From Arenibacter arenosicollis (GTDB taxonomy: Bacteria > Bacteroidota > Bacteroidia > Flavobacteriales > Flavobacteriaceae), in assembly GCF_014397245.1 (NCBI RefSeq), contig NZ_JACLHY010000001.1:620001-684000 (forward strand): a stretch of DNA of 64,000 nt. Direction: 5' to 3'. Below are positions 8,522-50,978 of this stretch, piece by piece (position 1 is the first letter of the stretch; every line of letters begins with the position of its first letter). The notes under the pieces are model-generated. The model was not told the DNA's origin. It saw only the letters and a list, made by a program, of their open reading frames with translations, and ran no database searches. The position numbers and the translations under genes are program-made.

Positions 8522-9751
8522 ATGACGAAAAAATTAAAAACCATAGAATTATTTGCCGGAGTTGGAGGCTTTCGATTAGGCTTGGAAAGAACGAAAAACT
8601 ACGAGATAATTTGGTCCAACCAATGGGAGCCATCTACCAAAATCCAACACGCTTCTTTGGTATATGAACATAACTTTGGTAAGGAGAACCATTGCAATAT
8701 GGATATATCGGAAGTTCCTGTTACCGAGATTCCTGATCACGACATTTTGGTGGGCGGGTTTCCCTGCCAGGACTATTCCGTAGCCACCTCCCTGAAGAAT
8801 TCCAAAGGTCTTATTGGAAAAAAAGGAGTGCTATGGTGGAGTATACACAACATATTGAAGGAGAAAAAAAACAAGCCAAAATACCTCTTTTTAGAAAATG
8901 TGGATCGATTGTTAAAATCACCCTCTAACCAAAGAGGGAGGGACTTCGCAGTAATGTTGAAAAGTTTGGACGAGTTGGGCTATGCCGTAGAATGGCGCGT
9001 TATTAATGCTGCAGATTATGGAATGCCACAGCGCAGGCGACGCGTATTTATTTTGGCTTACCATATGTCTACAGCAATCTATAAATCCATTAAATCATTA
9101 GATCCCTTAACATGGCTAATTAAAAATGGTACTATTGCCCAATCCTTCCCAGTTAATGGATTAACGTCTCAAATAACCAATTTAAACTTGGATGGGGATT
9201 TGATTACTATTTCCAATAATTTCAATTTGGAAGCAAAGCTGTCACCATTTCAAAATACAGGAATCTGTGTTGATGGTACTATTACCACTACAAAGACAAC
9301 TGCTGATTATGAAGGACCAAGAACAACTCTTGGTGATATTCTACATAATGGAAAAATAACCGATGACTTTTTAATTGCTCCCGCAGATATATACAAATGG
9401 GAGTATCTAAAAGGTGCAAAAAAAGAATTACGCAAGGCCAAAAACGGATTTCAATATGAGTATGGGGAGGGGAAGATGGTCTTTCCAGATAATCTTGACA
9501 ATGCGTCCAGAACCATAATTACAGGTGAAGGAGGAAAAAGTCCCTCACGATTTAAACATGTAGTAAAAACCCAGAAAGGATTAAGAAGGTTGACCCCTTT
9601 GGAACTGGAACGCTTAAATATGTTTCCGGACAATCATACCAAACTACAAGGAATAAGTGATACCAAACGCGCTTTTTTTATGGGTAATGCGCTTGTCGTA
9701 GGCGTTGTTGAACAAATAGGTAAAACCCTCTTTGCTAAAGTTAATATGTAA
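8522..9751 (+). CDS. DNA (cytosine-5-)-methyltransferase
   Basis: 409 residues with the ordered motifs of C5 cytosine methyltransferases: motif I F-A-G-V-G-G-F at residues 11-17 (SAM binding), motif IV G-F-P-C-Q-D with nucleophile Cys82, motif VI E-N-V at 125-127, motif VIII Q-R-R-R-R at 170-174, a target-recognition stretch of roughly residues 190-345, and motif X G-N-A-L-V-V-G-V-V at the C-terminus. It therefore methylates cytosine within a sequence that cannot be read from the protein by eye. No recognisable restriction endonuclease lies beside it; the only close gene is the 124-residue protein at 9930-10304, 178 bp downstream. It may be solitary (epigenetic) or paired with that protein. 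It probably arrived by transfer, as such genes usually do, but I see no integrase or flanking repeats. Confidence 0.92.
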   Translation: MTKKLKTIELFAGVGGFRLGLERTKNYEIIWSNQWEPSTKIQHASLVYEHNFGKENHCNMDISEVPVTEIPDHDILVGGFPCQDYSVATSLKNSKGLIGKKGVLWWSIHNILKEKKNKPKYLFLENVDRLLKSPSNQRGRDFAVMLKSLDELGYAVEWRVINAADYGMPQRRRRVFILAYHMSTAIYKSIKSLDPLTWLIKNGTIAQSFPVNGLTSQITNLNLDGDLITISNNFNLEAKLSPFQNTGICVDGTITTTKTTADYEGPRTTLGDILHNGKITDDFLIAPADIYKWEYLKGAKKELRKAKNGFQYEYGEGKMVFPDNLDNASRTIITGEGGKSPSRFKHVVKTQKGLRRLTPLELERLNMFPDNHTKLQGISDTKRAFFMGNALVVGVVEQIGKTLFAKVNM

Positions 9752-10861: not shown

Positions 10862-11293
10862 TTATTTACAGGGAATCTTCTCTATTCTTCTTTCATGACG
10901 ACCACCTTCAAATGAAGTATTCAAAAACGTTTTCACCATCTCCAACGCCTGGGGTAAAGAAATAAACCGGGCAGGTAAGCTTAAAATATTGGCATCATTG
11001 TGTTCCTTGGCCAATTGTACAATCTCGGTTGTCCAACATAAAGCCGCCCTAATTTTCTGATACTTGTTCGCCGTCATGGAAACTCCATTGCCACTTCCAC
11101 AAATTATAATTCCCAAATCTACATTTCCTTCCTCCACTTCCCTGGCCACAGGATGTACAAAATCAGCATAATCAACACTATCATTGCCATCTGTACCATG
11201 ATTTACTACATCTACACCCATAGATTTCAGTAACCCAATTATTGCAAGTTTATACTCGGTTCCCGCATGATCATTACCTATAGCTATTTTCAT
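10862..11293 (-). CDS. rpiB: Ribose-5-phosphate isomerase B
   Basis: 143 residues, matching RpiB/LacAB family length. The N-terminus M-K-I-A-I-G-N-D-H-A-G contains the D-H substrate-binding pair, and the catalytic Cys sits in I-I-C-G-S-G-N-G-V-S. The enzyme interconverts ribose-5-phosphate and ribulose-5-phosphate in the pentose phosphate pathway. It is transcribed leftwards, away from the candidate origin, and has a good TAnnTTTG promoter element on its strand at 11369-11362, about 69 bases ahead of the start. Confidence 0.93.
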   Translation of the reverse strand: MKIAIGNDHAGTEYKLAIIGLLKSMGVDVVNHGTDGNDSVDYADFVHPVAREVEEGNVDLGIIICGSGNGVSMTANKYQKIRAALCWTTEIVQLAKEHNDANILSLPARFISLPQALEMVKTFLNTSFEGGRHERRIEKIPCK

Positions 11294-11948
11294 TGTTTAA
11301 GGTTAGTTATTAATGAATAAAGTAATATAATATATATATGAAATAAATACTCATATACACACAAATGTACAAATACCCATGGTTTCACCACAGAAATGAC
11401 GTTATTAACAACATAAATTATAGAAAAAAAGAAAACCGTTGTTATTTAGTGGTTTAATGACAATGACTAATTGTTAACAAACTACTTATAAAAAGTAAAT
11501 ATTAAATTTTGTTTATCCGCTTTAATATTGCTTTACAAAATGTTATCCTAAAAGAATAATTTACTTCTTAGAATCTAATAGAAAGATATTAAATAATTAA
11601 ACGAAGTAATTAACATTCCCATTGCATTAACTTTTCAATAATTTTATGTTGATATTGGTTGTCAACAAATATTAATAACCCATTTAAGTCATTGATTTAT
11701 AATATTTAGTTGCTGTATAAATTGTCAATAAACTTATTTAATGGTTCAAAGCAAATTTATAAGTGCTTTTTTATATCCACTATAAACACACCATTATAAT
11801 CACCATTTTATTTTAAATTTTAGAAAAAAGAAAACATATATATATAATAGATGTTGATAACAACATTTATTAAAGAAGATGGAAACTTAAAAATGGAAAT
11901 TAAAGACAATGGATTATAATTCGTAATTTTCCAAAAATAAAAGTGTTA
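11294..11948. other. Candidate chromosomal replication origin (oriC) between rpiB and rnr
   Basis: A 655-bp gene-free, extremely AT-rich stretch between divergent rpiB and rnr. It contains repeated 9-mers of form TTRTYAACA, close to the DnaA box TTATCCACA: TTATTAACA 11402-11410, TTGTTAACA 11471-11479, TTGTCAACA 11659-11667, and on the minus strand ATATCAACA 11655-11647 and TTATCAACA 11860-11852. Strand composition flips here: by hand count 10861-11160 has 44 G and 79 C, while 11941-12240 has 65 G and 38 C. The flip persists when gene strand is matched: plus-strand gene samples are about G=C on the left (dehydrogenase gene) but 71 G to 46 C on the right (mnmG), and a minus-strand sample in the giant adhesin gene is 44 G to 49 C compared with 44 to 79 in rpiB. 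Two parS sites about 38 kb away agree with an origin region. This is an inference; no dnaA gene is in the window. Confidence 0.5.
11362..11369 (-). promoter_or_regulatory. Bacteroidota -7 element (TACATTTG) for rpiB
   Basis: CAAATGTA on the plus strand reads TACATTTG on the minus strand, an exact match to the TAnnTTTG consensus of the Bacteroidota primary sigma factor. It lies about 69 bases before the rpiB ATG. I see no convincing -33 TTTG at the expected distance. Confidence 0.5.
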
Positions 11949-14138
11949 ATGTCAAAGAATAATAAAAGAAACAAAAATCAAAGAAAAAACGAAATAACCA
12001 GAGGTATATTCACTGTTCTAGAAAAGGAGCCAGAGAAATCTTTTAACTATAAGCAAATTGCTGCTAAAATTGGAGTAGTAGAAGCCAATGATAGGAACAC
12101 CCTTATTAAAAGATTGGTAGAATTAAAGGAAAAGAAGCGAATTTTGGAAGAAGGAAGAGGTGCTTATAAGGCCATAGCTTCAAATAAGACATACCATACT
12201 GGAACGGTCGATATAACAGGTAGGGGCAATGCTTACATTGTAATTGAAGGTTTGGACGATGATGTTTTTGTTCCGTTCAATAAATTAAAAAAGGCTTTCC
12301 ACAAAGATGTGGTAGAGGTATATATTTTTCCTAGAAGAAAAGGAAAAAAATTGGAAGGTGAAATTACCAAGTTAGTATCCAGAAATAAGACCGCTTTTGT
12401 TGGTATTGTGGATATGCAAAAGGATTTTGCCTTTGTCCGTCCTACGGATTATAGAATGTATACCGATATTTTTATACCAAAAAATAAAATTTCAACGGCC
12501 GAAGATGGTGATAAAGTTATTGCAGAAATAAATGAATGGCCAGATAATGCGGATTCCCCATTCGGGACTATAACCCAAGTATTGGGAAAACCAGGGGAGC
12601 ACAATACGGAAATACATTCCATTTTAGCTCAATATGGTCTGCCATACGAGTTTCCTACAGAGGTAGAAATGTTTGCCGACACACTGGATACCAGTATAAA
12701 AGAGGAAGAAATAGCTAAGAGAAGAGATCTTAGAGATACTTTGACCTTTACTATTGATCCCAAGGACGCCAAGGATTTTGATGATGCCCTTTCCTTTAAG
12801 ATATTGGAGAATGGCAATTATGAGATTGGCGTTCATATTGCCGATGTTTCACATTATTTGGAAACTGGTACTATCCTGGATGATGAAGCCTATGACAGGG
12901 CAACATCTGTTTATTTAGTAGATAGGGTAGTTCCCATGTTACCGGAGGTATTATCCAATAATGCCTGTTCCCTGCGACCGAATGAGGAAAAATATACATT
13001 TTCAGCCATTTTTGAAATTGATGATAAAGCCGTTATTAAAAACGAGTGGTTTGGACGTACCGTAATAAATTCGGATGAACGATTTGCCTATGAAGAAGCT
13101 CAGCATATTATTGAGACAGGTAATGGTAAAATTCCACAGGAAATTTCTATTAGGGAAGAAGCTTATACCGTTAGTGATGAAGTAGTTAATGCTACCTTGA
13201 ACATGGACCGACTTGCTAAAATAATGCGTAATCAGCGTATGCAAGAAGGAGCTATTTCCTTTGATAAAATAGAAGTTCGTTTTAATCTTAATGAAAAAAT
13301 GGAGCCGGAAGGTGTTTATTTTAAGGAATCCAAGGATGCCAATAAACTAATTGAAGAGTTTATGTTGTTGGCCAATAGAAAAGTAGCCCGTTTTATAGGC
13401 AAGCAAAAACCAGTAAAAACATTTGTTTATAGGGTCCATGATGAACCTAATGAGGATAAATTAATGGCTCTTAATGGTATTATTTCACGTTTTGGACACC
13501 AGTTAAATTTTAAGGATAAAAAATCTATAAGTAATTCCTTAAATCAGCTTTTGGAGGATGTAAAAGGTAAAAAGGAACAGAATTTAGTGGATACCTTGGC
13601 CATTCGTAGTATGAGCAAGGCAATTTATACGGTGGACAATATTGGCCATTATGGGCTGGCTTTTGACTATTATACACATTTTACCTCTCCTATTAGAAGG
13701 TATCCGGATGTTATGGTACACCGATTGTTACAGCATTATCTGGACGGTGGGGAGAGTCCAAAAGCGGAATCTTACGAAGAAAAATGCAAGCATTCCTCTG
13801 ATATGGAAAGTCTGGCCGCAAATGCGGAACGCGATTCCATTAAATATATGCAGATAAAATTTATGGAAGATCATCAGGACCAGGAGTTTGTAGGTGTAAT
13901 TTCCGGGGTTACCGAATGGGGTTTATATGTTGAGATTATTGAGAATAAGTGTGAAGGAATGGTCAGAATTAGGGATATAAAGGATGATTATTATACCTTT
14001 GATGAAAAGGAATATGCCATTGTTGGTGAAAAAACCAAGAAATCCTATCAATTGGGAGACGAGGTTGTAGTGATGGTAAAGAGTACAGATTTAATAAAAC
14101 GCCATTTGGATTTTTCCTTATTGGGAAAAAACGATTAA
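11949..14138 (+). CDS. rnr: Ribonuclease R (3'-5' exoribonuclease, RNB family)
   Basis: About 729 residues from ATG 11949; the frame also allows a GTG at 11943. Domain order is a basic N-terminal helix-turn-helix (about 10-75), two cold-shock OB folds (about 80-230), the RNB catalytic domain with the acidic metal cluster in I-D-P-K-D-A-K-D-F-D-D-A (near residue 275) and the Y-T-H-F-T-S-P-I-R-R-Y motif, and a C-terminal S1 domain (E-F-V-G-V-I-S-G-V-T-E-W-G). It degrades structured RNA, including rRNA fragments and tmRNA-tagged messages, in the cytoplasm. It is transcribed rightwards from the candidate origin region. I find no exact TAnnTTTG just upstream. Confidence 0.95.
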   Translation: MSKNNKRNKNQRKNEITRGIFTVLEKEPEKSFNYKQIAAKIGVVEANDRNTLIKRLVELKEKKRILEEGRGAYKAIASNKTYHTGTVDITGRGNAYIVIEGLDDDVFVPFNKLKKAFHKDVVEVYIFPRRKGKKLEGEITKLVSRNKTAFVGIVDMQKDFAFVRPTDYRMYTDIFIPKNKISTAEDGDKVIAEINEWPDNADSPFGTITQVLGKPGEHNTEIHSILAQYGLPYEFPTEVEMFADTLDTSIKEEEIAKRRDLRDTLTFTIDPKDAKDFDDALSFKILENGNYEIGVHIADVSHYLETGTILDDEAYDRATSVYLVDRVVPMLPEVLSNNACSLRPNEEKYTFSAIFEIDDKAVIKNEWFGRTVINSDERFAYEEAQHIIETGNGKIPQEISIREEAYTVSDEVVNATLNMDRLAKIMRNQRMQEGAISFDKIEVRFNLNEKMEPEGVYFKESKDANKLIEEFMLLANRKVARFIGKQKPVKTFVYRVHDEPNEDKLMALNGIISRFGHQLNFKDKKSISNSLNQLLEDVKGKKEQNLVDTLAIRSMSKAIYTVDNIGHYGLAFDYYTHFTSPIRRYPDVMVHRLLQHYLDGGESPKAESYEEKCKHSSDMESLAANAERDSIKYMQIKFMEDHQDQEFVGVISGVTEWGLYVEIIENKCEGMVRIRDIKDDYYTFDEKEYAIVGEKTKKSYQLGDEVVVMVKSTDLIKRHLDFSLLGKND

Positions 14139-16346: not shown

Positions 16347-17321
16347 TTAATAAGTACATCTGCAATTACTAATTCCTTGGAAGAGGTCTACCCCGATGGT
16401 TACCACATGGGTTCCTGTACTATATCCCAAAATTTCGTTTAATATAATCTGATAGGAATATCCGAAATAGAAATTGCTTTTCTTAAGTCCGGCCAAGGGA
16501 GCTATATATAATGGCCTACCAATTTGGTCATTTAAGAAACGGTAAGTAATACCTGCATAATAGTAATCCTCAAAATCATACCATCTGAATTTCAGGTTTA
16601 AATCGGCTTCCGACCTACCATCACTTTCAAATATTTTGTATAAAATGGAAGGTTCTATTTCCATATTACTGTTTCTGGACTTTTTGTATCTATATCCTGA
16701 ATAAACATAGAAGTTTCTAAGCTTGCTGGGCTCATAGATGGGATCGAATATGTAAACATCCTTGTTGATAATGTTAGAAGCATTTACACTGAAATAAAAT
16801 GCATTTTTTCTGTACAAAAGACCTACATCAAAATTATGGTTGGATGTGGACCGGTCATTGGTAACCCCGGGATCAAAACCTGCGTCAATAAATTCATTTA
16901 CATCCAATCTAAATTGATTAAAATTATAGGAAATCCCAAAGGATAAAAACTCATCCTCATAGCGATTCAAGGTTAAATGGTGGGCAAAGGAAATCCGTGC
17001 TCCTTGTTGTTTTGTATACCCGTTGGAGTCGTTGTAAAGGAAGAGGCCTACACCAGATTTTTCCCCTAACCTCATATCCGCGGCCAGGGATTGGGTTCTA
17101 GGTGCGTCCTTAATGCCAACCCATTGTGCAAGTCCGTTCAACCTAATTTTCACATGATCGCCAATACCGGCATAAGTTGGGGATAGCACAAAAGGATTAT
17201 CAGCCAAATATTGTGAAAGTTGAGGCGAATTAAGTTCTTGGGCACTAGTAACCAGGGTACTTAAAAGCAACAAATAGATTAATAGTTTACTGCGCATTGT
17301 ATATTTGGTTAAGTTCTTCAT
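16347..17321 (-). CDS. sprF: PorP/SprF-family T9SS outer-membrane protein (SprF-like partner of the giant adhesin)
   Basis: 324 residues with a signal peptide ending at T-S-A-Q (about residue 28). The mature protein begins with the family block [21 protein letters not shown], then [15 protein letters not shown] and many alternating beta strands of a barrel. PorP/SprF proteins accompany type-B T9SS cargo; F. johnsoniae SprF is needed for surface delivery of SprB. Its ATG overlaps the stop of the giant adhesin gene by 4 bases (ATGA), indicating translational coupling and a dedicated partnership. The symbol is given by similarity and context and could be replaced by a generic PorP/SprF name. Confidence 0.88.
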
Positions 17322-20300
17322 CTATAAAGGGTGAAATGTCCAACAAATTCCCTGTCATCTTCCTCTCCTTTAAGTTTTATGACGTACCAATAATCCCCGG
17401 TCGGAAGCTCTGTACTGTGGTAAAGTCCGTCCCATCCTTGGTCATTCATACCCATTCTGTAAACCTCCCTACCATAACGGTCAAATACTATAGTTAGTAT
17501 TTTTGGGAACCCTTCTTGGTTTGCAGGTCTCCAGAAATCATTTTTACCATCACCGTCCGGAGTAAAGAAATTGGGAATTTCTATGTCAATGAACTCCATG
17601 AATATTTCTGCCGTGGCCTCACATCCATTCTCATCTACAACCCTTACCGTATGGGTTTTTGTTTCTTTAATGTAATGGGTATTGTCAGATCCGTTGTCCT
17701 TATCATTAAAATAGAAAGTGTACTCTTTTTGACCTCCAGTGGCTACAGCCGCTATTTCGTTGATGTTATTTTGTTCCAAGGTAAGAACCAGGGGTTCAAA
17801 GTTATCTATTTCAAAATCTATGGTCAATACACAACCATTGGCATGGGCTATGGCAATGTAGTGGTTCCCAGGAGCGATATTGGTAAAGTTGGGATTCAAA
17901 ACCATGTCTGCTGGATCTGTTGAATCCAAAGCGTACAACACATCTTCTGAAACTGAAGCATCATGTAAAGTAAGGATAATTGAGGCCTCGGGGGTAGCTC
18001 CTGTACATTCATATACAGGCTCTATTTCCGCGTTTAGATTAACACCCTCCTCTATCTCAACAATGATGTTGGTCTCACACCCTTGACTGTCTTTTACAAA
18101 TATTACGTAGGTCCCTGCTGCCAAATTGCTGAACGATGTTTGGCCAGGCACAAAATCGGATGGACCATTAGAGTTGAAAGCAGCGCTGTATGGTGCTGTT
18201 CCCCCTGTTATATCTATTACTATAGAACCATCCTGGCTACCAGTACATATTTCAGATTGTACCATGGTAGTGGTAACTTCCAATGGAAGAGGCGCTACAA
18301 TCTCCAAGTCGAATATGAATGGCTCACAACCATTGGAATCCTGTGCAATAATAGTATAGGTTCCAGGTAACAATTCCGTAAATATATTTTTGGAGCTGAA
18401 CTGGTTCAGGTTGGGAGAAATGGCATACTGATATGTACCAGTACCGCCTACCAAACCAACTTCTATACTACCAAAATCATCGGAACAAAGTGGATTGTTG
18501 ACGATGGGCGTATTAGCCGTCAATATATTTCCTTCTGTAATGACCACTTGTTCCCTATCCATACAATCTTGACTGTTAACTTGGATATAATAGGTTCCTG
18601 CCACTAAGTTATTGAAGGTGGTTGATTTCTGTGGTCCTCTCACTATTGTTGTTTGATCTTGTGCCAATAAGGTATAGGAATAACCTCCAAGTCCGCCTAC
18701 AGCCTTAACTTTGATGAGACCTGTAGACTCGCCATAGCAGCCAACATTTACAGTGGCATCTGCAGTTATTTTTAATTCAGGAATAGCATCAACGGTTACA
18801 GTGTTGGATACTGCTGAAATACATCCATTGGCGTCTTTGATAAAGTATTGGTAAGTACCGACGGCTATATTGGTCAATGTTGCTGTATTCCCAACCATAG
18901 AAGTAAACACTCCTGAAGAAGTGGTGCTATAACTGTATGGAGAGGTGCCTCCGTTGCCCGTTAATCTAAGATCGGCACCTACGGTACATGTATTTAATTT
19001 AGTAATGGCTAAGGAAGCAAGCACTTTTGAAGGTTCGTTGATAACTACAGTTGCCGTAATAAAATCACAGTTCCAGCCATCAGTAACCGTCACCGAATAA
19101 TTTCCAGCTGCCAAATTAGCAAATATGTTGGACGTTTGTGGTCCTGATGAAATTCCCAGATCTATATGGTTTAGAATATAATTGTACCTAGCTGTTGGGT
19201 CAATAGCAGGTCTTCCTCCTCCAGTAACGGTAGTTGTAATGGAACCACCAAAATCCCCTTCACACATAATAGTAGCCGTGGCAGAGGCAGTAGCACTGAT
19301 CTGTACTGGTTGTACCAATGTTTCTGTTGAGAAAACCTCACATCCATTCAAATCCCTAACATATATCTCATAAGTTCCTGCTGTAAGCCCTCCAAAAACA
19401 TTATTGGCAGTAAAATCTCCCGCAAGAGGTGGTGTGCCTTGTTTTATGGCATAAGTGTAGGTACCCCATCCACCAAATGCATTGGCAGTAATTTGTCCAG
19501 GATCCGAACATGTAATTTCTGTCGAAATATCCGTAACTAAATTAAGTGCGGTATTTGGTGATGCAATTTTTATGGTATTTGTAAGCGCGTCACAGAACGG
19601 TGTGCCGGTAGCGATTACGTTTACATAATAGTTGCCTGCAGGTAACCCAGTAATATTTATTGGGTTCGTTGAGGTGTTTGAAGCAACCACACCGGTGACT
19701 GCCGTACCATTGGACCTAAATACTTGATATGTATATGATCCTCCATAATTATTTATCTGTAAGGACAAGGCTCCATCAGTGTCTCCAAAACAGGTAACCG
19801 GTTTTGTAGGTGTTGCTACAGCTTCGATAATATCAAAAGGCGCAATGGTATAAGGTGTGGTTGTAAAATAACAACCAGTCGCGTTATCTGTCACCCTGAA
19901 CACATAGTCCCCAACAGCTGTAAGATTGAAGTCCGCGGTTTGCACTCCAGCTCCTGGTGAAACCATAGCGGTTCCCATGGGCAAGAGATCAAATGTGAAA
20001 TCTCCAGATCCTCCGTTAACTGTTAAGCGAACTGTTTCATCATTGATACAGGTAATGGCTGTTTGTTGTGTAAAATTAACAGTCGAAATTTTTGGTAGTG
20101 GATTAATTGTAACAACTGTATCATTGGTACATCCATTATCATCCTTAACGGTTACTGTGATATTTTGTACAGCTCCAGTGTCCGTTATGGCAAAGGTATT
20201 GGAGTTTACAAAATTTACCCCATTGATACTGTACGTATACGGAGCTGTACCATTGGCTCCCGTTGCCGTAATGATAGCCTGTGCGACTGTATTATTTGGG

Positions 20301-23300
20301 TTACAGGCGAACTCGGTATTTGTTGTTGTTACGGTAACAATTGCTGGTTCCGTTATGGTTACGGTTTGGGTATCCAAACAGTTCCTATCTGAAGTAACTG
20401 TAATATCATATGATCCAGCGTCCAACCCTGTAAATAAATTACTGTTTTGGGTGGTCGTGGTAGTACCATCAAAAATGGTATAGGTGTAAGGAGGATTATT
20501 ATTGGAAGTATCAAGGATAACCTCAAAGGATCCGTCTGCTCCTCCATTACAAGACACATTTTCCTGAGTATATGTAAATACTACTGGCGTTGGTATTTCC
20601 AAAGAAACCGGTGCTTGGGTATTACATCCAGAACCTCCATTATCATGAAGTACGGTAATATAATTACCAGGTGCCAAACCAGCAAAAAGATTAGAGGCTT
20701 GTGGTGCAACCATTTGGGCTCCGAATTCATCTTGTAGTTCATAAAGATAATTTCCTGAACCTCCTGCTGCTATAACAGTAACTTCTCCATCACTGGCTCC
20801 ACAAGAAGGTTGTGAAGTAGCCATAGGCGTTGCTCCCAAAGGTGGTAATATTACCATTGGTGTTGTTGCAATACAGCCATTGGCGTCCCTTACGGATACG
20901 GTATATGTACCTGGGGCAGAAACGGTAAGGATTGCACTGGATTGGAATCCGTTACCTACACTGTATTGCAATGGTGCTATTCCAGTACCGGTTGCTGTAA
21001 AGATATATGATGTTCCATTGGAAGTACACTGATCGTCAGCGTAGGCTGGTACAGAGACCGTTGGCAATGGATCTTCATTGACCGTTACGGTAATGAAGGT
21101 GAAACATCCCTTGGAATCCTGTACGTAAACATCGTAGTTTGTAGGGTAAGCCGCTGGGTTTAAGGTTGCGCTTGCACTAGCCGTGTAATTGCCTGGTGCA
21201 GGGACATTTCCTGATGTCATAAATGCATAAGTATACTCTGGAGTTCCACCGGCGGCTTTTACGCTCACCTGTGCCCCAATGTTACAATTGGCGTTAACAT
21301 TGTTGGTTTCTATAATGCTTATAGCGGCATTTGGAGATCCAATGGTTACAGCATTTGATTGTTCATCGCAAAATGGTGTGCCCAAGGCCTCAACCACTAT
21401 ATAGAAGTTTCCTGCAGATAATCCAGTAATGGTAAGGGTAGTAGAAACAGATGTGTCACCCGACCCTATAATTCCAGTAGTCGTTCCTGCAGTGTCAAAG
21501 ACTTCATAATTGAAAGTCCCTAGGTATCCTGTGATTTCGATACCCATTTCCCCATCACTGTCCCCAAAACAAGTTACGGACTTCAATGCTGTAGCAACTA
21601 CATCTATTGTGTCATAAGGGGCCACTGTATACTCAATGGTTTTAAAACAAGCTGTACCATTATCGGTCACCTTAATAGTGTACGTTCCTGGATTGGGAAG
21701 GCTTATATCCGCTACATTATTTTGAATAATTCCATAGCCCAATATCTCAAAGGTAAGGTTAGACGGAGTGGATTCACCACTAACATTTACCCTAATAATT
21801 TCTCCCGTATTATCGCACGTAATTGCCGTTAACAGGGTGGTACTCAATGTTATCACAGGTAAAGGGTCTATAGTTTGTGACAAAGGTGTTATAATGGAAC
21901 AACCATTATTGTCCTTTACATTTACCGTAAAATTGCCTGCGGTATTGGTCACATAGGTATATACATTTTTAGAGACTCCGGTTCCTTCAAAATAGGCACC
22001 TCCGTCTATACTGAAAAAGTATGGTCCAGTACCTGTTGTTGCATCGGCCGTAATATCAAAAGAAGCTGTTTGTGCAGTATTGTTTGCATCACAAGCAAAA
22101 TCTACCACATTGTTAATGGAGGCAACAAGTTGTGCTGGTTCAACAATTGATATGTTGTCCGTAGCCACGCAGTTTCTGTTGGAAGTTACGGTAATTACAT
22201 AATTCCCTGGGTTCAAGCCTGAGAAGAACCCATTACTTTGGGTAATTGCAGGATCCACGCCATTGTCTATAGTAAAGGTATATGGTGGATTATCATTGAC
22301 TCCAGCACTTGGAGTAACCAAGCTAACCTTTATGGTACCATCGGCTGCACCAAAACAACTAATATCGGATTTTTGGGTCACCTGTAAGGTTACTGGTGAT
22401 GGTTCTTCTAAAGTAAGCTGTATTTCTTTGGTACAATTGGTAGGATTTCCTAAGGAATTGTCTGTAACACGAACCACATAGGTTCCAAATGCCACTCCTG
22501 TAAATTGGTTTCCAGCAGGAGCAATCCCTGTTGTAGTAATTCCATCCGCTTCGAACAATTCTACCGTATTAACTCCAGATCCTCCTGTTACGGCAAAGTC
22601 GATAACCCCGTCGTTGGCAGTACAAGTAGGTTGGGAATTTACCGTAGCACTAAATTCCAATTCAGGGTTAATGGTAATCGATTCAGTTTCACCACAACCA
22701 TTGGCATCCAGCACTTCTATATTGTATGATCCAGAAGAAAGATTGCTGAATATATATGGGAATGATGCTATATTTTGGAAAGCATTACCAACAATTCTAA
22801 TTCTATATGGAGCTACGCCAGTATTGACAGCATCCAAACTCACTTCTACCGAGAAACTACCCTCATCCTCACATTCATCAACAATCGCCAAGGAAATATC
22901 TGGTCTTGTATCTTCGGTGATGGTAATATCCAAGACTTGGGAAATACATCCATTGGAATCCTGGGCATATACATCCCAATTTGCACCTAGACTAAAGTCC
23001 AAGTTTAGCGTTTCATCCTCTGGAAAAGCTCCTGGGATAGCTGCACCATCCAATACATACGCATAGGTATAAGGTCCGGATCCTCCACTGGCCTGCACCA
23101 CAACAATAGCATCTTCATTACAGTTGTCAGGGGTATTGCTTACCTCAACCACAACCACTTCTTCCGGAGCATCTATGGTCACCGAATTGGACACATCGTC
23201 ACAGAAAGGAGTTTGTGTTTCTGTTACCTCAACGGTGTACATACCCGCTGGTAATGTCTGTGGTATTACATAATTAAAAGGATCTGAAATAGCATCTGAA

Positions 23301-26300
23301 CTTCCAAATGCACCAGCCACTGGGTTCCCTAAATTATCCAAGACTCGATAATCAAATGTGCCTATATAGCCGGAAATATTAACTTGCATCTCCCCATCGG
23401 AGCTATCGCTACAGGTAGCATCTTTTACCAAAGAAGCTGTTATCGTTATAAGGTCATATGGCGCCACATTGTGTTCTACAATTACGGAACAATTTGTGGT
23501 TGTATCCAGTACCTCAAAAACATAATTGCCAGGAGCGGTTAGTATTATATTGGTTGGGTCCGCTACTACATTACCACTTGGCAGTTCAGTATAAGTATAA
23601 TTCCCAGATCCATCTGCAGGAACAATTTCTATGATTTCCTGACCATTGGTACAATTAATGGCTTGATGTTGTGTAATAGTCGCTGTTACTTTTTGTTTTG
23701 CAGGAATGGCTACAGAGGTTGAAACTGTACAGCCATTATCATCCTTAACGATAATATTTACATTTGGAGATCCATAAGCTACCATATAAGTATTATCGGA
23801 TTGGAACGATCCTCCGTTATAACTATACAAATAAGGAGCAGTTCCAGAAGGGTTACCTGTGCCATCATTTGTAATGCTTACGGTTACTGTACTGGCATTG
23901 TCATCACAGGTATAATCAGTGGCAGAGGCCGCGATTGCCAATAGTGATGGCTCATTAATTGTGATGGTCTCGTCATACGTACACCCTTTATCAGAAATAA
24001 CGGTAACGGTATAGTTTCCTTGGGTCAACCCAGCAAATACGTTGGAGTTTTGGGTAGTGGTACCCCCGTCCAAACTATATATATATGGATTGTCTGTATT
24101 TCCTGCATCTAGGGTCACAGTTATGGTTCCATCGTTTCCGCCAAAACAACTTACATCTGTTGCAGATAATGTAAATGTTGGGTTGGTAGGGGCATCAATG
24201 GTTATAGAAACACTCTTGCTACAACCAGTTATGTTATCGACGATATCAAAATCATAGGTGCCGCTCGTCAACCCAGTAAATACTGCGTTATTTACTTGTG
24301 CAGGTCCTGCTGGACTGGTTTGGGTAAATGTAAAATCATTGGATCCACCATCCGTAAGAATGGTAACCTCAGCACTATTGGCAGGGTCACATTGCTCTTC
24401 AGCAGTTATCCTTGCATTTGCGAATAGTGGAGGATGAATGGTAATGGATTCGGCCGCTTCCCCACATCCACTGGAATCCACTACCCTCACGGTATGGGTT
24501 CCAGATGAAAGGTTAGGGATTAAAACAGTATCTCCAGAAACGGATAGGTTTACCGGTTCCAAACTTCCGCCATCCACGCTCATGAAATACGGCGCGACCC
24601 CATCATTATCCAAGGTTACTATAATTTCGAAAGCTCCTTCATTGGCGCAAGCCGTTGTCAAGGCTATGGAAATAGTAGATTCCGGTTCCAAATTATTGGT
24701 TACAGCGGCTGATTGAATACAGTTATTGGCATCCTTTACGTACACAATATAATCACCATATTCTACATTGGCGTAATTCTGTGAAATCCAACCTGGGCTG
24801 GTCGCCGTTGGCGGTGCATCCGCAGGGGTTAGGAATTGATATAAATAAGGTGAAGTACCGTATTTCGCTGTTCCAGTTATAATACCTTCATTTGATAAGC
24901 AGTTGTCATCTTTTACAGAATTAGCTGTAAGTTCCAATAAAACAGAGGATTCATCAATGGTGAAATTCTCAGTTCCTACTGAACAATCATTATATGCGCC
25001 ACCTACTTCTTTGAAAAGCACATAGTAAATTCCAGGTGCCAATGGGCCTAAATCGGTAACGCTCACTGGACCTGGATGGGGAAGTGGACCGGAAGCTCCT
25101 GTAATGCCTGTGGACGCGTTGGATTGGGAATTGAATATTTCATATGAAACACTTGTAGCACCTCCATCGTAGTTATCGAAGGTAAAAGATATGGCACCAT
25201 CCGCTGCACCTTTGCAACTAACGTTGGTAGTTGCATCCCAAGTATAGGTTAAACCCGAAGGGGAATCTATAGGGGAAGCTGCGGATTCAAAATAATAACA
25301 GTTATTGGTAAGGTCGTGTACAACAAAGGTATAGGTTACCCCTGGTGTTAAACCAGTGAAAGTCGTAGTATCCGGAGTTCCCCCGTCTGCAGGTTGGTAA
25401 ACACTGGCGTAAGGGGAAGTGTAGGTATCCAATATACCAAACTCATAATTACCGCTGCCTGCTGCAGAAGAAACGGTAACAACCGCGGTTCCACCTACAG
25501 AGCAGTCAGCCGTGATAGCAGAAACATCTATATCCAAATCATCCGGTGGGGAGGCAATAATATCTGTTTTACTCAATGAACATCCATTGGCGTCTACTAC
25601 ATCAATTTCGTAAATACCGAATTCCAAAATCGTAAATGTATAGTCTTCTCCGCCAGAAGTTGTTGCATAGGAATCTGAAAATCCATTGTTTCCTGTTAGA
25701 TAATAAGTGTATTCTGCAGTGCCTCCTGTAAGGTTTTCAACTGTGATGCTCCCTGGAGTAACTCCTCCTACGTCACATCGAATCGGAGTTACCGAATAAT
25801 CATAGACTATTGGATCTGGTTGTCCTATTGTAATATGAAAGGGGTTTGATTTACACCCTTTACTGTCGGTTATTGTAACTTCATAATCCCCAGCAGGTAA
25901 ACCAGCTGTTTGATTCCCGTAATTGGTTGGTGTTCCTATTTCAATTACTTCTGTTGTAAACGGTCCAATTCCTTTGGAGGTATCAATAGTAACGTTCAAT
26001 GTACCTGTGAAGTCCCCATTACATAATGGATCTGTTGCCGTTACAGTCAATTCTGGTTGTTCAGTCGGATTTACTTTTATTGGATTAGAAAGAGCCTCAC
26101 ATCCGGAGTCGTCGTATACTTTAAAAATATAGTCCCCCGCAACATTGGTGTTAAAACTAAAGGTTGCACCTGCTAAAGCAGCTCCAGGGTTAAAGGTGGC
26201 ACCACCATCGGTACTAACCTCATAACGGTCATATGGTGGATATCCTCCACTAACGGTAACATCTATCACGGCATCGGTAGGTGCAGAACAAGTAAGGTCC

Positions 26301-29300
26301 TTGGTAACCACGGCGCTGGCAAAAATCAATCTTGCTGGAACCACAACTTGTAATGTAGCTGCTGTACAACTATAGGCATCAGTCGCCTCAAAATCATATG
26401 TTCCAGGAATTATCCCGGAAAAGGTATTACTAAGTTGATAAGGACCTCCGTTTACTCTATACCTATAAGGAGCTTGTCCTCCTGTTATATCCAAGACAAT
26501 CTGCGCTCCATTATCATCAAAACATAGATCTGAGCTTGAATCCAAACTTAAACTGGGAATAGATGCAGGAGCAATGGAAATAGGCTTGTTTACAATACAG
26601 CCATTGGCGTCCATTACATAAATGGTATAATCGCCGGCCGAAACATTACTGAAAACCCTGTTCCCTTGGTAAGGCACTATGGTAGCCGTACTTGTGGCAT
26701 CCATTAATTGATATTGATACGAACCCCATCCACCTGTAGCGTTCACCGTAATCGCTGCATTGTTTGTGCAGGTTACATCGGTATTTGTATAGGTGAAATC
26801 TAAGGGACTAATTGGTTCGCTTATCAGTGCCGGAGCAGAAGCTGTACAAGTAGTGGTATCATCCGTAACATTTACGCTATAGATGCCCGCTGGGAGATTA
26901 GGTACCGAAATAGGTGTAGTCGTAGATATATTATTTTCAAATTGTACCGTAACTCCCGAGCTATTTTTAACGGTATAACTGAAGGTCGATACAAAGTCAC
27001 TTGTGGTAAAGGCAAACTCTCCATCAGTATCCCCTTTACAGGTCACATTTTTCACCAATTGGTACAATACGCTTACCTTGGGGATAGTATTGATGGTATA
27101 GTTTTTTCGAATAGTACATCCCTTGGCATCCGTAACTTCAAAAGTATATGTTCCAGGTGTCAACCCTACGAACGTTGAATTATTGCCATTATTTGTAGCC
27201 TTAAGTAAAGGAGCCACAATCTGATAGATAAAAGGTCCATTACCATCAGTTACATTCACGGTAACATTACTAAGAATGGCCGGACAGGTCAATGCCGATG
27301 GGGAAAATGAAAGGTCTGAAGGTGCGTTTAATGGAGCAATGGTTTGGGTACTCGTTGCGATACAACCTTTTGCATCCCTTGCCGAAATAGTATAGGTGCC
27401 GGCCATTAACCCCGAAAACGTAGTGGAAGCTCCAAAATTTACCCCGTCAATACTGTATTGATAAGGAGCGGTACCTCCATTTGTACTGGTTACTGTAATT
27501 GTAGCAGAACCGGTAGTACAGGTATAATCTTGGGAAACGGTTGTTGTAGTTGTCAATACAGGAGGATCTGTAAGGGTCACCGAACCTGTTATTTGACATC
27601 CCTTGGCATCTGTAATTGTGTAGTTATAATTACCAGCCGTTAAACCAGAATAGGTAGTTTGTGTGGTTGCAGGACTACCGTTAAATATCACTTGATATGG
27701 TGGTGTTCCTCCAGTTACGTTCAAGTTTACTGAACCATCTGCAGATCCTGCACAATTTGGGTCAGTTACTACTGGTGTCGCTGTAGGTGGTGTATTGCTG
27801 CTTACAATAATTTGATTGGAAGTTACGGTACAACCCGAACCATCGGTAATCCTAAATTCATAAGACCCGGTAGTTGATGTTGTATAGGTAAACGGTGTTC
27901 CTGGAACAGCGGCGCTAGCCTGAAAAATAGCCCCATCCAAAAACACTTCGTAAGAATATGCAGCTGTGCCGTTTGCAATGGAAACACTAATTTGAGCATC
28001 TGGAGTTATACTACAATCCATATCCTTTACCAAATTTGCATTAACGGTTAAGGTAGGGTTGACCGTAATAGATTCAGTATCGGTACAGTTCTTATTGTCT
28101 ATAACGTCTACGGTATAGGTCCCAGGTGCCAATCCGCTAAAAACGTTGTTGGACTGGTAGGCACCACCGTTGATTCTATATTGAAATGGTGCTTGTCCAC
28201 CTGAGCTTACAGAAGCAGTTATGGTTAAACCAACTGCGGCATCATAACAAAGGTTGTTGGCACTTATGGCCAAGTCAGGCGCTATGGCGGGGTTTAAGGT
28301 AAAGGATGTGGAGACGGTACACCCATTCACATCGGTAATATCAACATTGTAAGGAGCAGAAGTGTCCAAAAGCCCACCAAAGACACCCGTAGTATTGGAT
28401 GTAATTGTCCCGCTTGGGTCGGTAATTTGGTAAGTATAACCGCCCCATCCTCCGGAAACACTAATGTTCACTGATCCTGGAACGGCTCCACTTGGGGAAC
28501 AACTTGGATCTGTTACTGCCACTGCATCAATTACCAAAGGTGCTGCAGGTTCATTTACGGTTATGGTGGTGGTATCAGTACAGCCAGTGGTCTCATCCGT
28601 TACTACAATAGTGTAATTTCCCGCAATTAATCCATTAATGGAGGTAGTTCCAGCTGATTGATTAGTTATAGGAGCGGCCCCGTTTACCGTATACTGATAG
28701 GTTGTGGAAAAGCCAGAAGTGTCAAAAGATATCACGCCGTCAGCAGCTCCCTTGCAGGTAACATTGCTTACCAAAGCCCCTACAACGGTTATTGGATTAA
28801 CGGGTGCAATGGTGAATGTTTCAGAATATGAACAACCATTGGAATCGGTGACTAAAAAGGTATAGGTATCCGGTGCAAGTCCCAAAAAGACATTGTTATT
28901 ACCATTATTTAGTACGGCTGGTGCCGTCATTTCGTATGTAATTGCTCCTGTTCCGCCAGTAACCGCGAGGGTTACATCGGACGTCTGAGTGGGACAATTT
29001 GGAGGGGTTGCGCTAAAGGTAATGTCCGTAAGTGGATCCAATGCAGGTATAGCTACCGAATTGGTTACAAAAGTACATCCACTGGCATCTTTTACGGTAA
29101 TGGTATAAGTACCATCCGTTAAGTTGGCAAAAGTATCCGATAATCCAAAAGTAACGCCATCAATACTAAAGGTGTAAGGGGCCGTTCCTCCAGTTACATT
29201 ATGAGCTTGTATGGTACCATTCTGTAAACAGGTATATGACTGTGTTAATACGGCGTCTGCCGCAATAGGGTTAGGGGTGGTTAAGGTAACACTATCGCTA

Positions 29301-32300
29301 TACGTACATCCTTTACTATCCTCAACAATATAAGTATAGGTTCCTGCTCCCAAGCCAGTGTATAAGGTTTGTGAAGAAAGACCCATCCCATTAAAATCTA
29401 CTTGATATGCCGATGTTCCAAAATTGCCATCTATAACTATTTCAATACTACCATTGGTAGCGCCATCACAGTCTGGATCAATAGCATTGTGAGTAGCCAC
29501 TGGGTTTGATATTGCATCAATGACCACCGTTGTTTGGGCTGTACAACCTTCGCTATCTGATATTGAAAAGGAAAAAGAACCGTCGGTTGGGGTCGTATAT
29601 GAAATGGTATTTCCAATGACGGGGTTACTTGTACCACCATTAATTTGGTAGGTATATCCTGGGTAGCCATTATTTATAGTAATATCAATTACTGCATCTG
29701 GCGAAATACTACAGTCCAATTCCTTGGTCAAAACCGAGGAGACCGTTAGTTGTGCATTAATTACAACTGTATTGGATGTTGTGGTACAACCATAGGCATC
29801 CCGGACTACCACTGAATATGATCCAGGAGTAAGGCTGGTGAAGACGTTTCCGTTTTGAGCTGGGGCACCATTCAGACTATAGGTATAAGGAGCTATCCCC
29901 CCAGAAGCATTGGCCGTTAGGCTAACGCCTGTTCCGGGCACATAACAAAGATCTGTAGTCGGATCCAAGGTAACTGTTGGATTAACTGGTGCGCTGATAT
30001 TGAATGTATTGGTTATGTTACAACCGCCTGCATCGGTAACACTAATTGTGTACGTACCTGTTTGGGTTAGTCCAGAAAACACATTTCCTGGTTTTGGACC
30101 AAGCACACTAGCATCTGGTTGTGTGAGCTGGTAAGAATACCCACCCCAACCATTGGAAGCAGTAATGGAAACAGATCCATTGGCCACACAAGTAAGGGGT
30201 GTAACATTAAAAGTAAAGCCAAGTGCTGCCGCAGGCTGATTTACGGTTATTGTATTGGTAGCGGTACAAGCCGTAGCCTCATCCGTAACTTGAATGGTAT
30301 AGTCTCCTGCAGTTAGACCAGTAAGATTAATGGTCGGTGATGACTGGCCAGTAACGGCCGCTCCCCCATTAATGGTGTACTGATAGGAAGTTCCAAATCC
30401 GGCAACACTGAAATCTATGGCGCCATCGTTACCACCAAAACAACTTACATTCCTATTTAATGCTCCATTAACGGTTATATAGGTAATATCATTTATGGTA
30501 TAGTTCTCAGTGTAGATACAATTATTCTCGTCAGTAACTTCAAATGTATAAGTACCAACTGCCAATGCATTGAAAGTTGCCGTTACTCCATTGGTAGTAT
30601 CCGGATTTTTTACGCTTGGACTTGTCATTCTGTAAGTCAACACCCCTTTACCTCCGGTGGTGCTCAATGAAACATTTGAAGTTGGCACTGCACAAGTTAT
30701 TTGGGAAGCACTAAAACTTAAATCTGTTGGCGGTGTCAATGGTGCAATGACAATTTGAGGCAATGAAATAATACAGCCAGGGTTGTTGGTATCCCTAATA
30801 GCTGGAGAATAAGTGCCATTGGTTAAATTGGAATACGTAGTTGTGGCACCAAAGGTAACCCCGTCCAAACTGTATTGGTAACTACCAGAGCCGCCTGTTG
30901 CTCCGGAAAAAGTAATCACCCCATTTTGTAAGCACGTATAAGTCTGTGTTAAGGCAGCCGTTGCTGTAATTTCCGCGGCTGGATTAATAGTGATTGGATA
31001 ATCATAATCACAACCATTTTTCCCCTTTTTCAGCCTTACATAGAGGGTGTAATCTCCAGGGGCCAAGTTGTAATAATTTTTTTGACTTGTGAAAGTTATA
31101 CCATCCAAACTGTATTCCACGTTGAAGCCATTGCTATTGATTAGATCAACTCTTATACTTCCATCATTTGCATTAAAACAAGTCTCGTCTGTATTTGTTA
31201 TATTGTAATCTGCTTCCTCTTCCAAAGTAATGACAGCAGTATTGGAAATGGCAACACAGTTGTTTTCATCCAAGACTACATATTGGTAAGATCCCTGTTC
31301 CCCTATCTTAACGTCAAAGATAACACTGGTTTGGTATGCCGAAGCGGGTATATCGTTCACATCGCTATACAAAGGACCTCCCACACCGCTTTCATCAATA
31401 TAACTCCAAACAGCATAGTAGTATTTACCAGAACCGCCAGATCCCTTTACCTGAATGTTTCCTTCCTTACAACTTACATTTTGTGACACCACCGCAGTAG
31501 CCGAAAGTTTGGAGGAGGAAATAATCGATACATTTTGGGTATAGGAACATCCATCATCCGTTGTGGCTGTTACCATATAGTCACCAACGTTTACAGAGGT
31601 AAATGTATAGTTGTTATCATCGGAAGGACCAAAGGAATCGACCAGTGATCCACCTTGTCTTAGTTCGTAATAATACTGGGGATCCACATCATTGACAGAC
31701 ATACTGATGGTACCTTTTCCATTGGCACAGAAAGGATCTGTCTTGGTAACATTAACAGAAAAGTTGCGTTGAAAAACATCAATACTCTGAACCTCGAAAA
31801 TACATGGGTTTGTAAGAACATTTTGTTGTCTGATGTACACGCTATAAGACCCCGGGGTAGCTATATCAAAAACACCCGTAGTATTGGAAGCGCTCCAATC
31901 ATTTTGATCTAGACTATACTCATAACTTCCGGGAACATTAGTAATGGTAATATTTCCTGGTTGACTACACATAATGTCTTTTTTAATGACATTTGGTGTT
32001 AATATGTTTTCATATACCTTAAAATTGAACCTGTTGGAACATCCGTTTTCATAACTTACTACAAAACGAAATGTTCCCGCTTCAGTAGCTGTGTAGTCCT
32101 CTGTAGTAGCTACGGTATTCCAAACACAAGAAGCGTTCGTAGTAACACAATTATCAGAGGCAGGTGCTGAACAACTACCCTCATCCAATTTTTGCCAGGC
32201 ATAAGAAATGGCATCGGTGAAGGTAGTTTCTATTAAACGCTCATCATTTGCACCACAAAGAAATATTTTAGGTAAAGCAGAGCCATCATTGGAACAGGTG

Positions 32301-34222
32301 GCCACTTCATCCGCATAAGGGATAACCGGATTAGGTACGCTGTTGGTAAAAGGTACTACCTCAATAACCTCATCAAAGCTCAAACAAGGTGCAGGAGCTG
32401 TTTTAGTTACCGTGTATGTGCCTAAATTGGTTACCACTATACTTTGTGTGTTACCAACTATGGCACCATTTTGATCCTTCCATTCATAGGTGTCAAACCC
32501 AGTACCTGCCGTCAATGTAGCTGTACTACCACATAAATATTGCTCTCTAGTGAAATCACAGTCTTCCAGGTTCACCAGGAAGTTGGTTGCACCTGGTACT
32601 GCATACCCACAATTGTCAAATTTGGATACACTTGGATCGTCTGTGATTACATTATTGTTGAATTCACCGCTATACGTGGCGTATGCAGTGTTTTGAATTA
32701 TATTGGAACAGGCATCCCTTAAGCGGTAGCAATCAGGAACTACTCGAACTTTTAATTTGATGGTATATCGTGGGTCCCCCTTTTCCACGAATTCCTTGGG
32801 AATGGTAAATACCACTTCGTGGTCACTTGAATTGTAATTGTAGGTAATGGATTTTCCATTTATAGGGGCTGGTAGCACCAAACCAGCTGGTAGAAAATCA
32901 ACATTAGTAGGCAATGCATCTTTTAGGGTAAAGTTTAATGCATTATCATTACCAATGTTTTGGAACTTTAAAATATAGTACATTTCCTGACCCAAGGTCA
33001 CATCGGCATTGGAAATATCGTTACCGGCAACATCCTCGACATTTTTGGTTATCTCTATTTCTGGCTCAATGATCTCTACATTGAAAGAATTGAAAAAAGG
33101 ATAGTATTGGTCCCCTGTTGAGGTAAAACGAAACGTTGCCGAAGTTTCTGAGTTGGGCAAAGTAGCATTTGCAGGGTTGTCTAAAAAGAATAAATCTGTG
33201 TCGTATCCTAATGTATTTGTGCTATTTGGGTTTCTAGTGGTAACTACAGCGCCGTTTTTGGTTATATTGCTATTAAAGAAATTGTCCACAGGATTGGTGG
33301 CATTGCTCAACTGTGTAAAAGTCGCCTTGCTTGCAGCTTTAATGCTCAATTGATCTCCACTGATCCTAAAATCCCCTTCAAGGGCTGCTACACCTATGTT
33401 CGCCTTAACAGGACCAGAAGGTATAGTCTTAAAACCAGCATAGTTTATATCCACTTGTGGATCTGCTCCTCTTACCCTTGCAAAACCGTCAAAGGTTGTA
33501 ATCAACTTTCCGGATATCGTTGGGTTTTCATAAACAATTACTAAGGTCCAGCCAGCTGATGCACCGCCGGAAGTACCGGTCCCTGTGACAGATCTAACAT
33601 TGGCAATAGTATATAAACCTTGTGGGTTGGCTAATCCGGATAATAAAGTGGTTACATCGGCGTAACAAGCATAGGGACTATTGGCCCTCATGGAGGCATC
33701 TGTGCTGGTAAAACCATCATAAAGAATTTCATTGGCCGTAATATCAACATAGGTACCCCCCGGCACTTTTAGTTTAACTTTGTTAAAATCATTTTGGCGT
33801 CCTGTACCAAGACTTTGTCCACCTTGGGCACTTGGGTAAGTTGCGGACCAGTAGAGTCCCGCATACCGAATCTGATTACAGTCCGGAGAAGGATAGCTTA
33901 GAGTTGCACTACTGGAACTAAATGTTGATGCGTCACTGTCCACATCAATATATTGCATGTTCTTGTAGTCGTTATAATTATTGGCGCCACCGGTCTCATT
34001 ATTGCTACTCCCATTTGTACTAAGGTTATTGTAGGCATCCACTGGTCTTGTTGTACCAGTTCCGCCATCCCTGTTAACGATATTATTGGCGATAAAGGTT
34101 AAATCTCCTTTAATATTGTTCTGGTACCGCACCTCAAAATTGTTGAATTCCTGAGAAATACCGGCATACCCCATTAGGACTACTAGGGTCAGTATAATTT
34201 TTGAGTAGAATGTTAATTTCAT
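17318..34222 (-). CDS. sprB: Giant SprB-like surface adhesin with type B T9SS sorting domain
   Basis: About 5,634 residues from ATG 34222, chosen because the signal peptide [11 protein letters not shown] begins there; the frame extends up to 34324. The N-terminal 400 residues hold beta-rich domains, including a DUF11-like region near 33.05-32.85 kb ([10 protein letters not shown]). After that come dozens of 35-85-residue modules of SprB-repeat type with the pattern C-x-G-x-x-D-G, Y-x-Y-S, L-x-x-G-x-Y-x-V-x-V-x-D-x-x-G-C, one Cys at each end. They are arranged into two arrays of larger repeats (19.2-25.3 and about 25.8-31.0 kb). The last 90 residues ([16 protein letters not shown] ... G-D-Y-W-Y-V-I-K-L) are the gliding-motility-associated type B sorting domain. 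In F. johnsoniae SprB moves along the cell surface and drives gliding. The next gene is the SprF-like partner. It may instead be a polysaccharide-binding adhesin not used in motility. Confidence 0.9.
19200..25300 (-). repeat. Type II super-repeat array in the giant adhesin (units of about 1.8 kb)
   Basis: A different ordered module series repeats in the C-terminal half. The Cys codon of the [IV]-S-C-[FN]-G module lies at 24146, 22355 and 20549 (spacings 1791 and 1806). The Cys codon of the C-x-x-x-x-D-G-[EA] module lies at 25214, 23411, 21569 and 19790 (spacings 1803, 1842 and 1779). The array thus holds three full copies and part of a fourth. Its unit length and module order differ from those of the type I array. 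Boundaries are approximate. Confidence 0.75.
25800..30960 (-). repeat. Type I super-repeat array in the giant adhesin (three copies of about 1.7 kb)
   Basis: The same ordered series of about seven distinct modules recurs three times. Anchor: the Cys codon of the T-Y-T-C-L-Q-N-G module lies at 30932, 29228 and 27518, spacings of 1704 and 1710 bases. A second anchor, the N-V-[ST]-C-[FK]-G module, gives similar spacing (about 30.45, 28.77 and 27.04 kb). Modules within one copy differ strongly, but equivalent modules in different copies are clearly alike (for example D-G-V-T-F-G and G-W-G-G-Y-[ST]-Y-Q). Boundaries are approximate. Confidence 0.75.
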
Positions 34223-34324
34223 TCGGCTAATTCGTTTAGTAAAACCCGCACATTCCATCTCTTGATGGAAAGCGCTTTTGTTATTTTTAAATAGCAGGAT
34301 GTTGGATGTGGTTTTGATTTCCAT

Positions 34325-50962: not shown

Positions 50963-50978
50963 TGTTCCACGTGGAACA
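50963..50978. promoter_or_regulatory. parS: parS site 2, downstream of mnmG
   Basis: TGTTCCACGTGGAACA again, 18 bases after the mnmG stop. The palindrome extends perfectly to 24 bp (50959-50982, flanks TTAA on both sides). It is 1.9 kb from the first site. Confidence 0.9.

Follow-up and report, generated by a model that had tools for sequence, protein, structure and literature searches.

The chromosomal replication origin (oriC) of Bacteroidetes commonly lies far from dnaA, according to DoriC data (partial text of PMC4755523). In chromosome 1 of Prevotella intermedia OMA14, the predicted oriC is described (DoriC; PMC4755523, partial text) as a cluster of DnaA boxes located at the skew transition, with a distant dnaA. 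The intergenic region of the marine bacterium Arenibacter arenosicollis reported here shares these features, but differs in place and host; the search rule used there admitted E. coli-type boxes with one mismatch, here the sites are mostly of the TTATNAACA type, and the place is tied to rpiB. Boxes of E. coli follow TTATNCACA, and while changes at position 5 are irrelevant, other deviations reduce affinity (PMC5043019, partial text). Epsilonproteobacterial origins feature, as the present one, a lineage-wide preference at one box position; according to the same excerpt, position 5 is there fixed as T, whereas here position 5 is free and position 6 is changed. The description of Ori-Finder 2022 (PMC10225481) mentions boxes that are species-specific. 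A caution has been raised that the origin recorded in DoriC is wrong in some entries (excerpt of PMC13342612), and in Blattabacterium, which lacks dnaA or boxes, the origin has been set by skew alone (excerpt of PMC2768785). No description of an origin between rpiB and rnr, or of the TTATNAACA box, was found in the literature searched; DoriC lay outside this search, and an earlier prediction there is likely. The region is very probably an ordinary oriC of an already known kind, well located, and marked by an uncommon box letter.

The window analyzed is a 64,000-nucleotide stretch of DNA, corresponding to positions 620,001-684,000 of contig C1 (776,680 bp) in a draft assembly of 5.40 Mb and 77 contigs. 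The candidate oriC spans positions 11294-11948 of the window (C1:631.3-631.9 kb; no strand assigned), and is flanked by the divergent genes rpiB (ribose-5-phosphate isomerase B, 10862-11293, minus strand) and rnr (ribonuclease R, 11943-14138, plus strand). The rnr start is GTG 11943 in the list of open reading frames; an ATG at 11949 agrees with the limits set in an earlier note on this DNA, which had pointed to a gene-free, AT-rich stretch of 655 bp. The two genes do bound such a stretch, and its AT content is 0.788. When a 655-bp frame was slid over all 777 kb of C1, this value was reached only by frames lying on the gap. We are highly confident that replication of the chromosome originates in the stretch between rpiB and rnr.

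Strand asymmetry changes across the gap. The 300 bases adjacent to it contain 35 G and 84 C on the left, 63 G and 38 C on the right. The direction of the bias is the one noted earlier, and the right-hand count (65 G, 38 C) was nearly exact, that on the left (44 G, 79 C) somewhat off. The bias had been said to persist when genes of the same strand are compared, and it does so at 4-fold degenerate sites on both strands: the G fraction increases from 0.33-0.34 left of the gap to 0.41-0.46 right of it in plus-strand genes, and from 0.56-0.58 to 0.63-0.65 in minus-strand genes. In its raw form, uncorrected for gene strand, the cumulative GC skew of C1 falls over about 600 kb, reaches a minimum at 606.3 kb, 25 kb from the gap, then goes up to 680 kb, down to 720 kb, near the minimum again, and up once more. 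A skew minimum far from the gap had been named as evidence against an origin. Along the 777 kb of C1, with genes called by a simple ORF rule, the cumulative minimum at 4-fold sites is located at 634.8 kb and the gene-strand-corrected change-point at 634.0 kb, with a gain of 70.7 log-likelihood units over a model of no change; the place of the gap lies 0.97 units below the best change-point. In 200 gene bootstraps, which searched the interval 560-700 kb in steps of 4 kb, the change-point varied from 632 to 648 kb (median 632 kb).

The skew of relatives was read in 20 stretches from each of the chromosome-sized contigs carrying rpiB in genomes G001 (3.755 Mb) and G002 (4.049 Mb). Plus-strand genes of G001 have a G fraction of 0.31 at 1085-1105 kb and of 0.46 in the sample including the rpiB-rnr pair (1105-1125 kb), and a change in the opposite sense separates the sample at 2.28 Mb from that at 2.85 Mb. 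One sample of the left arm, at 3.61 Mb, is discordant (0.46 on plus-strand genes), and contains 8.4 kb of N. In G002, where rpiB-rnr are found at 3.04 Mb, the values for minus-strand genes are 0.51 at 3.00 Mb and 0.65 at 3.20 Mb; at 3.00 Mb there are few plus-strand genes, and their G fraction is 0.47 (n=91). A skew switch with the sign of an origin is thus seen, after gene-strand correction, in one contig of A. arenosicollis and in two sampled relatives.

The gap is enriched in DnaA-box-like 9-mers. At least five sequences of the TTRTYAACA type had been noted. Exact matches occur at four distinct places (11402, 11471/11472, which is palindromic, 11659 and 11852), and the fifth sequence, at 11647, is ATATCAACA, one letter off. 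By counting the palindrome on both strands, the gap features 5 strand-hits, whereas 650-bp windows of C1 contain 0.04 on average. Over a grid of 2388 windows a count of 5 was never reached, and in a finer scan this number was found only in frames on the gap, the runner-up being a place with 4 hits at C1:475,201. Over the whole 64-kb window strand-hits are 12 (5.7 expected). Sites differing from TTATCAACA at one position at most are 5 in the gap (0.37 expected), and 5 or more such sites were found in 3 of 7761 C1 frames, all three overlapping the gap. The cluster, more dense than expected by chance, is one of TTATNAACA-type boxes. E. coli-type boxes were considered as the sites of the gap and discarded: neither TTATCCACA nor TTATNCACA has an exact match in it, and a single site differs by one mismatch from TTATCCACA (0.27 expected). 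A match to the E. coli consensus is not demanded of every oriC.

Nine sites may be distinguished, and their variation was analyzed by aligning 78 gaps, the one in the window and 77 others; locus L087, whose homologous upstream gap includes 350 letters read as N, was excluded. The best conserved among the aligned sites is the DnaA box TTATCAACA (11852-11860, minus strand), in which positions 1-4 and 6-9 are conserved in 0.96-1.00 of the gaps, variation being confined to position 5 (C 0.68, T 0.22). As in DnaA boxes, the sole variable position is the one published as free. Position 6, C in the textbook box, is A in 0.97 of the gaps. The same residue is found at position 6 of ATATCAACA (11647-11655, minus strand; A 0.99, variable at positions 1, 3 and 5) and TTGTCAACA (11659-11667, plus strand; A 0.96, variable in the family at positions 5, 8 and 9). 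A at position 6 is not universal. In TTATTGACA (11723-11731, minus strand) this position is G (0.56) or C (0.35), and positions 1, 2, 4, 7, 8 and 9 are conserved at 0.97 or more. In the leftmost site, TTATTAACA (11402-11410, plus strand), an exact TTRTYAACA which could be aligned free of gaps in 50 of the 78 sequences, C (0.52) exceeds A (0.30), and positions 1-3 are weakly conserved. The palindromic TTGTTAACAA (11471-11480) has the family consensus TTGTTAATAA, which corresponds to TTATTAACA on the minus strand; TTATTAACA is also the family consensus of the box-like TTATTAATA (11670-11678, minus strand). The remaining box-like sequences are TAATTAACA (11607-11615, plus strand), the AACA part of which is conserved in 0.99-1.00 of the 78 gaps, and CTATAAACA (11780-11788, plus strand), which varies at position 5, has AAC conserved at 0.99-1.00, and adjoins a triplet block.

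This block, made of five NAY triplets (CAT TAT AAT CAC CAT, 11792-11806, plus strand), has the central A conserved in 0.95-1.00 of the 78 gaps. It is located to the right of CTATAAACA, and is followed by an AT tract. Nearest-neighbour sums place the lowest stability over 100 bp of the gap at 11805-11905, which represents the candidate unwinding element, an AT-rich, easily melted segment set beside boxes. An equally low value over 100 bp is found at 16 places of C1, the element itself included, and by itself carries little weight; over 60 bp, the weakest part of the gap is the left end (11297-11357), which is poorly conserved. The order of box, triplet-periodic motif and AT-rich tract is that known from the DnaA-trio of Firmicutes (PMC7561715, partial text), but the triplets of the gap are NAY on the box strand, and not 3'-[G/A]A[T/A]-5'. 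A canonical DnaA-trio, meant as 3'-[G/A]A[T/A]-5' repeats after a GC cluster, was rejected for the gap in the window, in which no run of at least 5 trios with at least 2 C was detected. Such runs were found in 15 of the 78 gaps, and in 0-3 of the gaps in each of 10 shuffled sets, so that some relatives may carry a DnaA-trio.

The association of rpiB and rnr is conserved in relatives. In named genomes, the six rpiB sequences nearest to that of the window come from Arenibacter, and are 92-97% identical. Among the best 80 named relatives, taken from at least 567 confirmed rpiB stretches, a divergent rnr is found 558-781 bp from rpiB in 78; in the other two, contigs stop 601 and 370 bp from rpiB. 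In a family sample including one genome per genus, a divergent rnr was found at 481-1166 bp in all of 29 loci, the best 29 besides our own from 117 genomes with a match. In two genomes of the same family (G067 and G130) rnr was not seen up to 1.5 kb from rpiB, and one more (G100) has a weak rnr match at 1142 bp. Outside the family, rnr resides within 1.5 kb of rpiB in 2 of 26 loci of the class, and is divergent in neither. The sequence of the gap is conserved as well as its position, in the interior as at the ends: many 9-mers recur across the 78 gaps far above shuffled sets, and TTATCAACA is present in 57 of them (2.9 expected).

Elements of transcription are seen at the two ends. TACATTTG (11362-11369, minus strand) is likely the -7 element in the promoter of rpiB; the consensus of such elements is TAnnTTTG. 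The conserved GATTATAATTCGTAATTTTCC (11912-11932, plus strand), located immediately 5' of rnr, is probably the rnr promoter. A sigma-70 scan gave 13 hits, compared to 9.2 (sd 2.8) in shuffled sequences, and one terminator was predicted, compared to 0.4; neither difference is informative. A search of Rfam at the gathering threshold, extended from 9 to 18 kb, returned nothing beyond one tRNA.

Two parS sites had been reported to the right of the gap, and the 5.4-Mb draft indeed contains no other exact match to TGTTNCACGTGNAACA. Both read TGTTCCACGTGGAACA (49051-49066 and 50963-50978), and lie 37-40 kb from the gap, on the rnr side, in the same domain. They are located at the two sides of mnmG (gidA, 49076-50944, plus strand), a classic neighbour of the origin. 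The two sites are 1.9 kb apart, and a spacing of about 1.9 kb recurs in many of the relatives listed. The ybeY gene (48648-49070) is found immediately upstream of mnmG, and its end is overlapped by the first parS. ParB_N has a single match in the genome, on another contig (C21:50592-50870), so that parB was not seen beside parS in the draft. Exact parS sites were found in all five named relatives searched, in four of them about 8-40 kb from rpiB by contig coordinates, and in 109 of 119 genomes of the family. Among the matches listed, 45 genomes have parS; in 40 parS and rpiB reside on one contig, in 5 on two. In all of the 40, the distance between the two is 5.8-62.9 kb, and parS is located upstream of rpiB, which is here the rnr side, in 39, on the opposite side in one (G268).

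The origin had been supposed to be separated from dnaA. The draft contains a single dnaA match, which is on contig C10 and not on C1. Distances between dnaA and rpiB, computed with rounded genome sizes, are 0.91-1.9 Mb in all 12 genomes that could be measured among 60 sampled from the family (11 made of one contig, and G171, all with dnaA and rpiB on one chromosome-sized contig). No dnaA adjoins the gap; adjacency is common elsewhere, and is not a defining trait in Bacteroidetes. The separation is neither novel nor unusual for the phylum, since it has already been published as common in Bacteroidetes (partial text of PMC4755523).

The skew, the gaps at the homologous place in relatives, the synteny of parS and the conservation of boxes all support the candidate origin between rpiB and rnr. 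It might be argued that replication starts elsewhere in the same domain, for instance in the vicinity of mnmG and parS, the gap being a cluster of boxes which titrates DnaA or has a regulatory role. The bootstraps of the skew, which reach 648 kb, and the presence of parS and mnmG at C1:669-671 kb go in this direction. The parS sites, however, are 21 kb past even the 648-kb upper bound, no second region of this kind, both AT-rich and box-rich, occurs in C1, and the 20-kb sample of G001 including the gap already features the skew of the right arm; we consider such a start very unlikely.

A reading to which we give still less credit is that the gap is merely a long region of divergent promoters for rpiB and rnr, the change in skew having been left by a rearrangement. 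Long divergent spacers are often AT-rich, and promoter-like elements are conserved at both ends, but conservation extends over the interior in the 78 gaps and is of the box type, G001 and G002 also change skew at these genes, and two genomes of a sister family keep an AT-rich gap with box-like sites upstream of rpiB even though rnr is found downstream, on the same strand. A switch in skew has, taken alone, two possible meanings, and could also denote a terminus. In the window G rises rightward, which is the sign of an origin, as an excess of G is usual in leading strands; moreover, parS is nearby, and an array of boxes is expected at an origin. The chance that the switch marks a terminus is negligible.

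If the rpiB-rnr gap is oriC, DnaA made by the distant dnaA gene would bind about nine 9-bp sites, mostly of the TTAT(N)AACA type or near to it. A DnaA filament would then open the AT-rich part, most likely around 11,800-11,905, beside the conserved triplet block, the helicase would be loaded at the opened part, and two forks would depart in opposite directions. ParB, bound to the two parS on either side of mnmG, 37-40 kb away on the right, would segregate the new origins. The place, the switch in skew, the enrichment in boxes, the conservation, the synteny of parS and the distance from dnaA have been established by computation; DnaA binding, the site of DNA opening, and the start of replication at this place in living cells are predicted.

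The recognition helix of the A. arenosicollis DnaA reads DHATV, and is aligned with DHTTV of the E. coli structure 1J1V. DHATV was found in 31 of 32 DnaA sequences of the family, a set including that of A. arenosicollis and those of the best 30 loci from 60 genomes. The one sequence that departs, from G310, a genome labelled as belonging to this family, reads DHSTV; no origin was located in the 12 kb examined there. In the phylum sample, the 30 best-scoring loci of 99 genomes (G310 included) have DHSTV (25) or DHTTV (5), a list which, being ranked by score, favours the commoner type. In the order sample, 30 loci were read: DHATV was found in 22, for which box evidence at origins is confined to the overlap with the family sample, and DHSTV in 8, seven from genomes of a sister family (f2) and one from G310.

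Family f2 belongs to the same order. In two of its members, G349 and G396, an AT-rich gap is located directly upstream of rpiB, as in Arenibacter, and a few kb from parS, but rnr follows rpiB on the same strand, and DnaA carries DHSTV. TTATCCACA occurs once in each gap, together with TTATTCACA in G396 and with one A-type TTATTAACA in G349. Over the 140 kb read of G349, AT content peaks at this gap, which lies 2-5 kb from parS; the local minimum of the raw skew is about 17 kb off. These gaps are oriC-like, a status based on AT content, boxes and parS. Two parS sites in G349 flank an ORF similar in size to mnmG.

Published box work (PMC5043019, partial text) leads one to expect a loss of affinity upon changes at position 6. 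It is conceivable, though we would not favour it, that DnaA and the origin boxes of Flavobacteriaceae shifted recognition together, DHATV being paired with A at position 6 (TTATNAACA). The sister family, with S at that residue, may have kept TTATCCACA, and the NAY block might represent a lineage-specific unwinding motif; to these points we attach the same guarded degree of belief. A simple rule linking DHATV to A at position 6 is weakened by G349, a DHSTV genome with one TTATTAACA beside TTATCCACA, by G310, which carries DHSTV under the same family label, and by the more distant G292 and G273, also DHSTV, which mix TTATCAACA and TTATCCACA in candidate box clusters that feature no clear skew switch. 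The facts on G349 and G310 made us slightly lower the weight assigned to a joint shift. Since one letter of the box and one residue of DnaA are involved, co-evolution of initiator and origin is directly testable.

The region upstream of rpiB provides a conserved oriC address for much of the large family Flavobacteriaceae, useful for coverage-based estimates of growth rate, to orient chromosomes, and to construct replicating vectors. The aligned sites constitute a family-specific DnaA-box matrix; a one-mismatch search for the E. coli box finds one site in the gap.

Two other features of the window may be mentioned. A gene for a C-5 cytosine DNA methylase is found at 8522-9751, 1.5 kb off the origin gap. 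Positions 17318-34324 are occupied by one minus-strand ORF of 5668 aa, which adjoins a PorP/SprF-type gene, and perhaps encodes a giant surface protein secreted by the type IX pathway.
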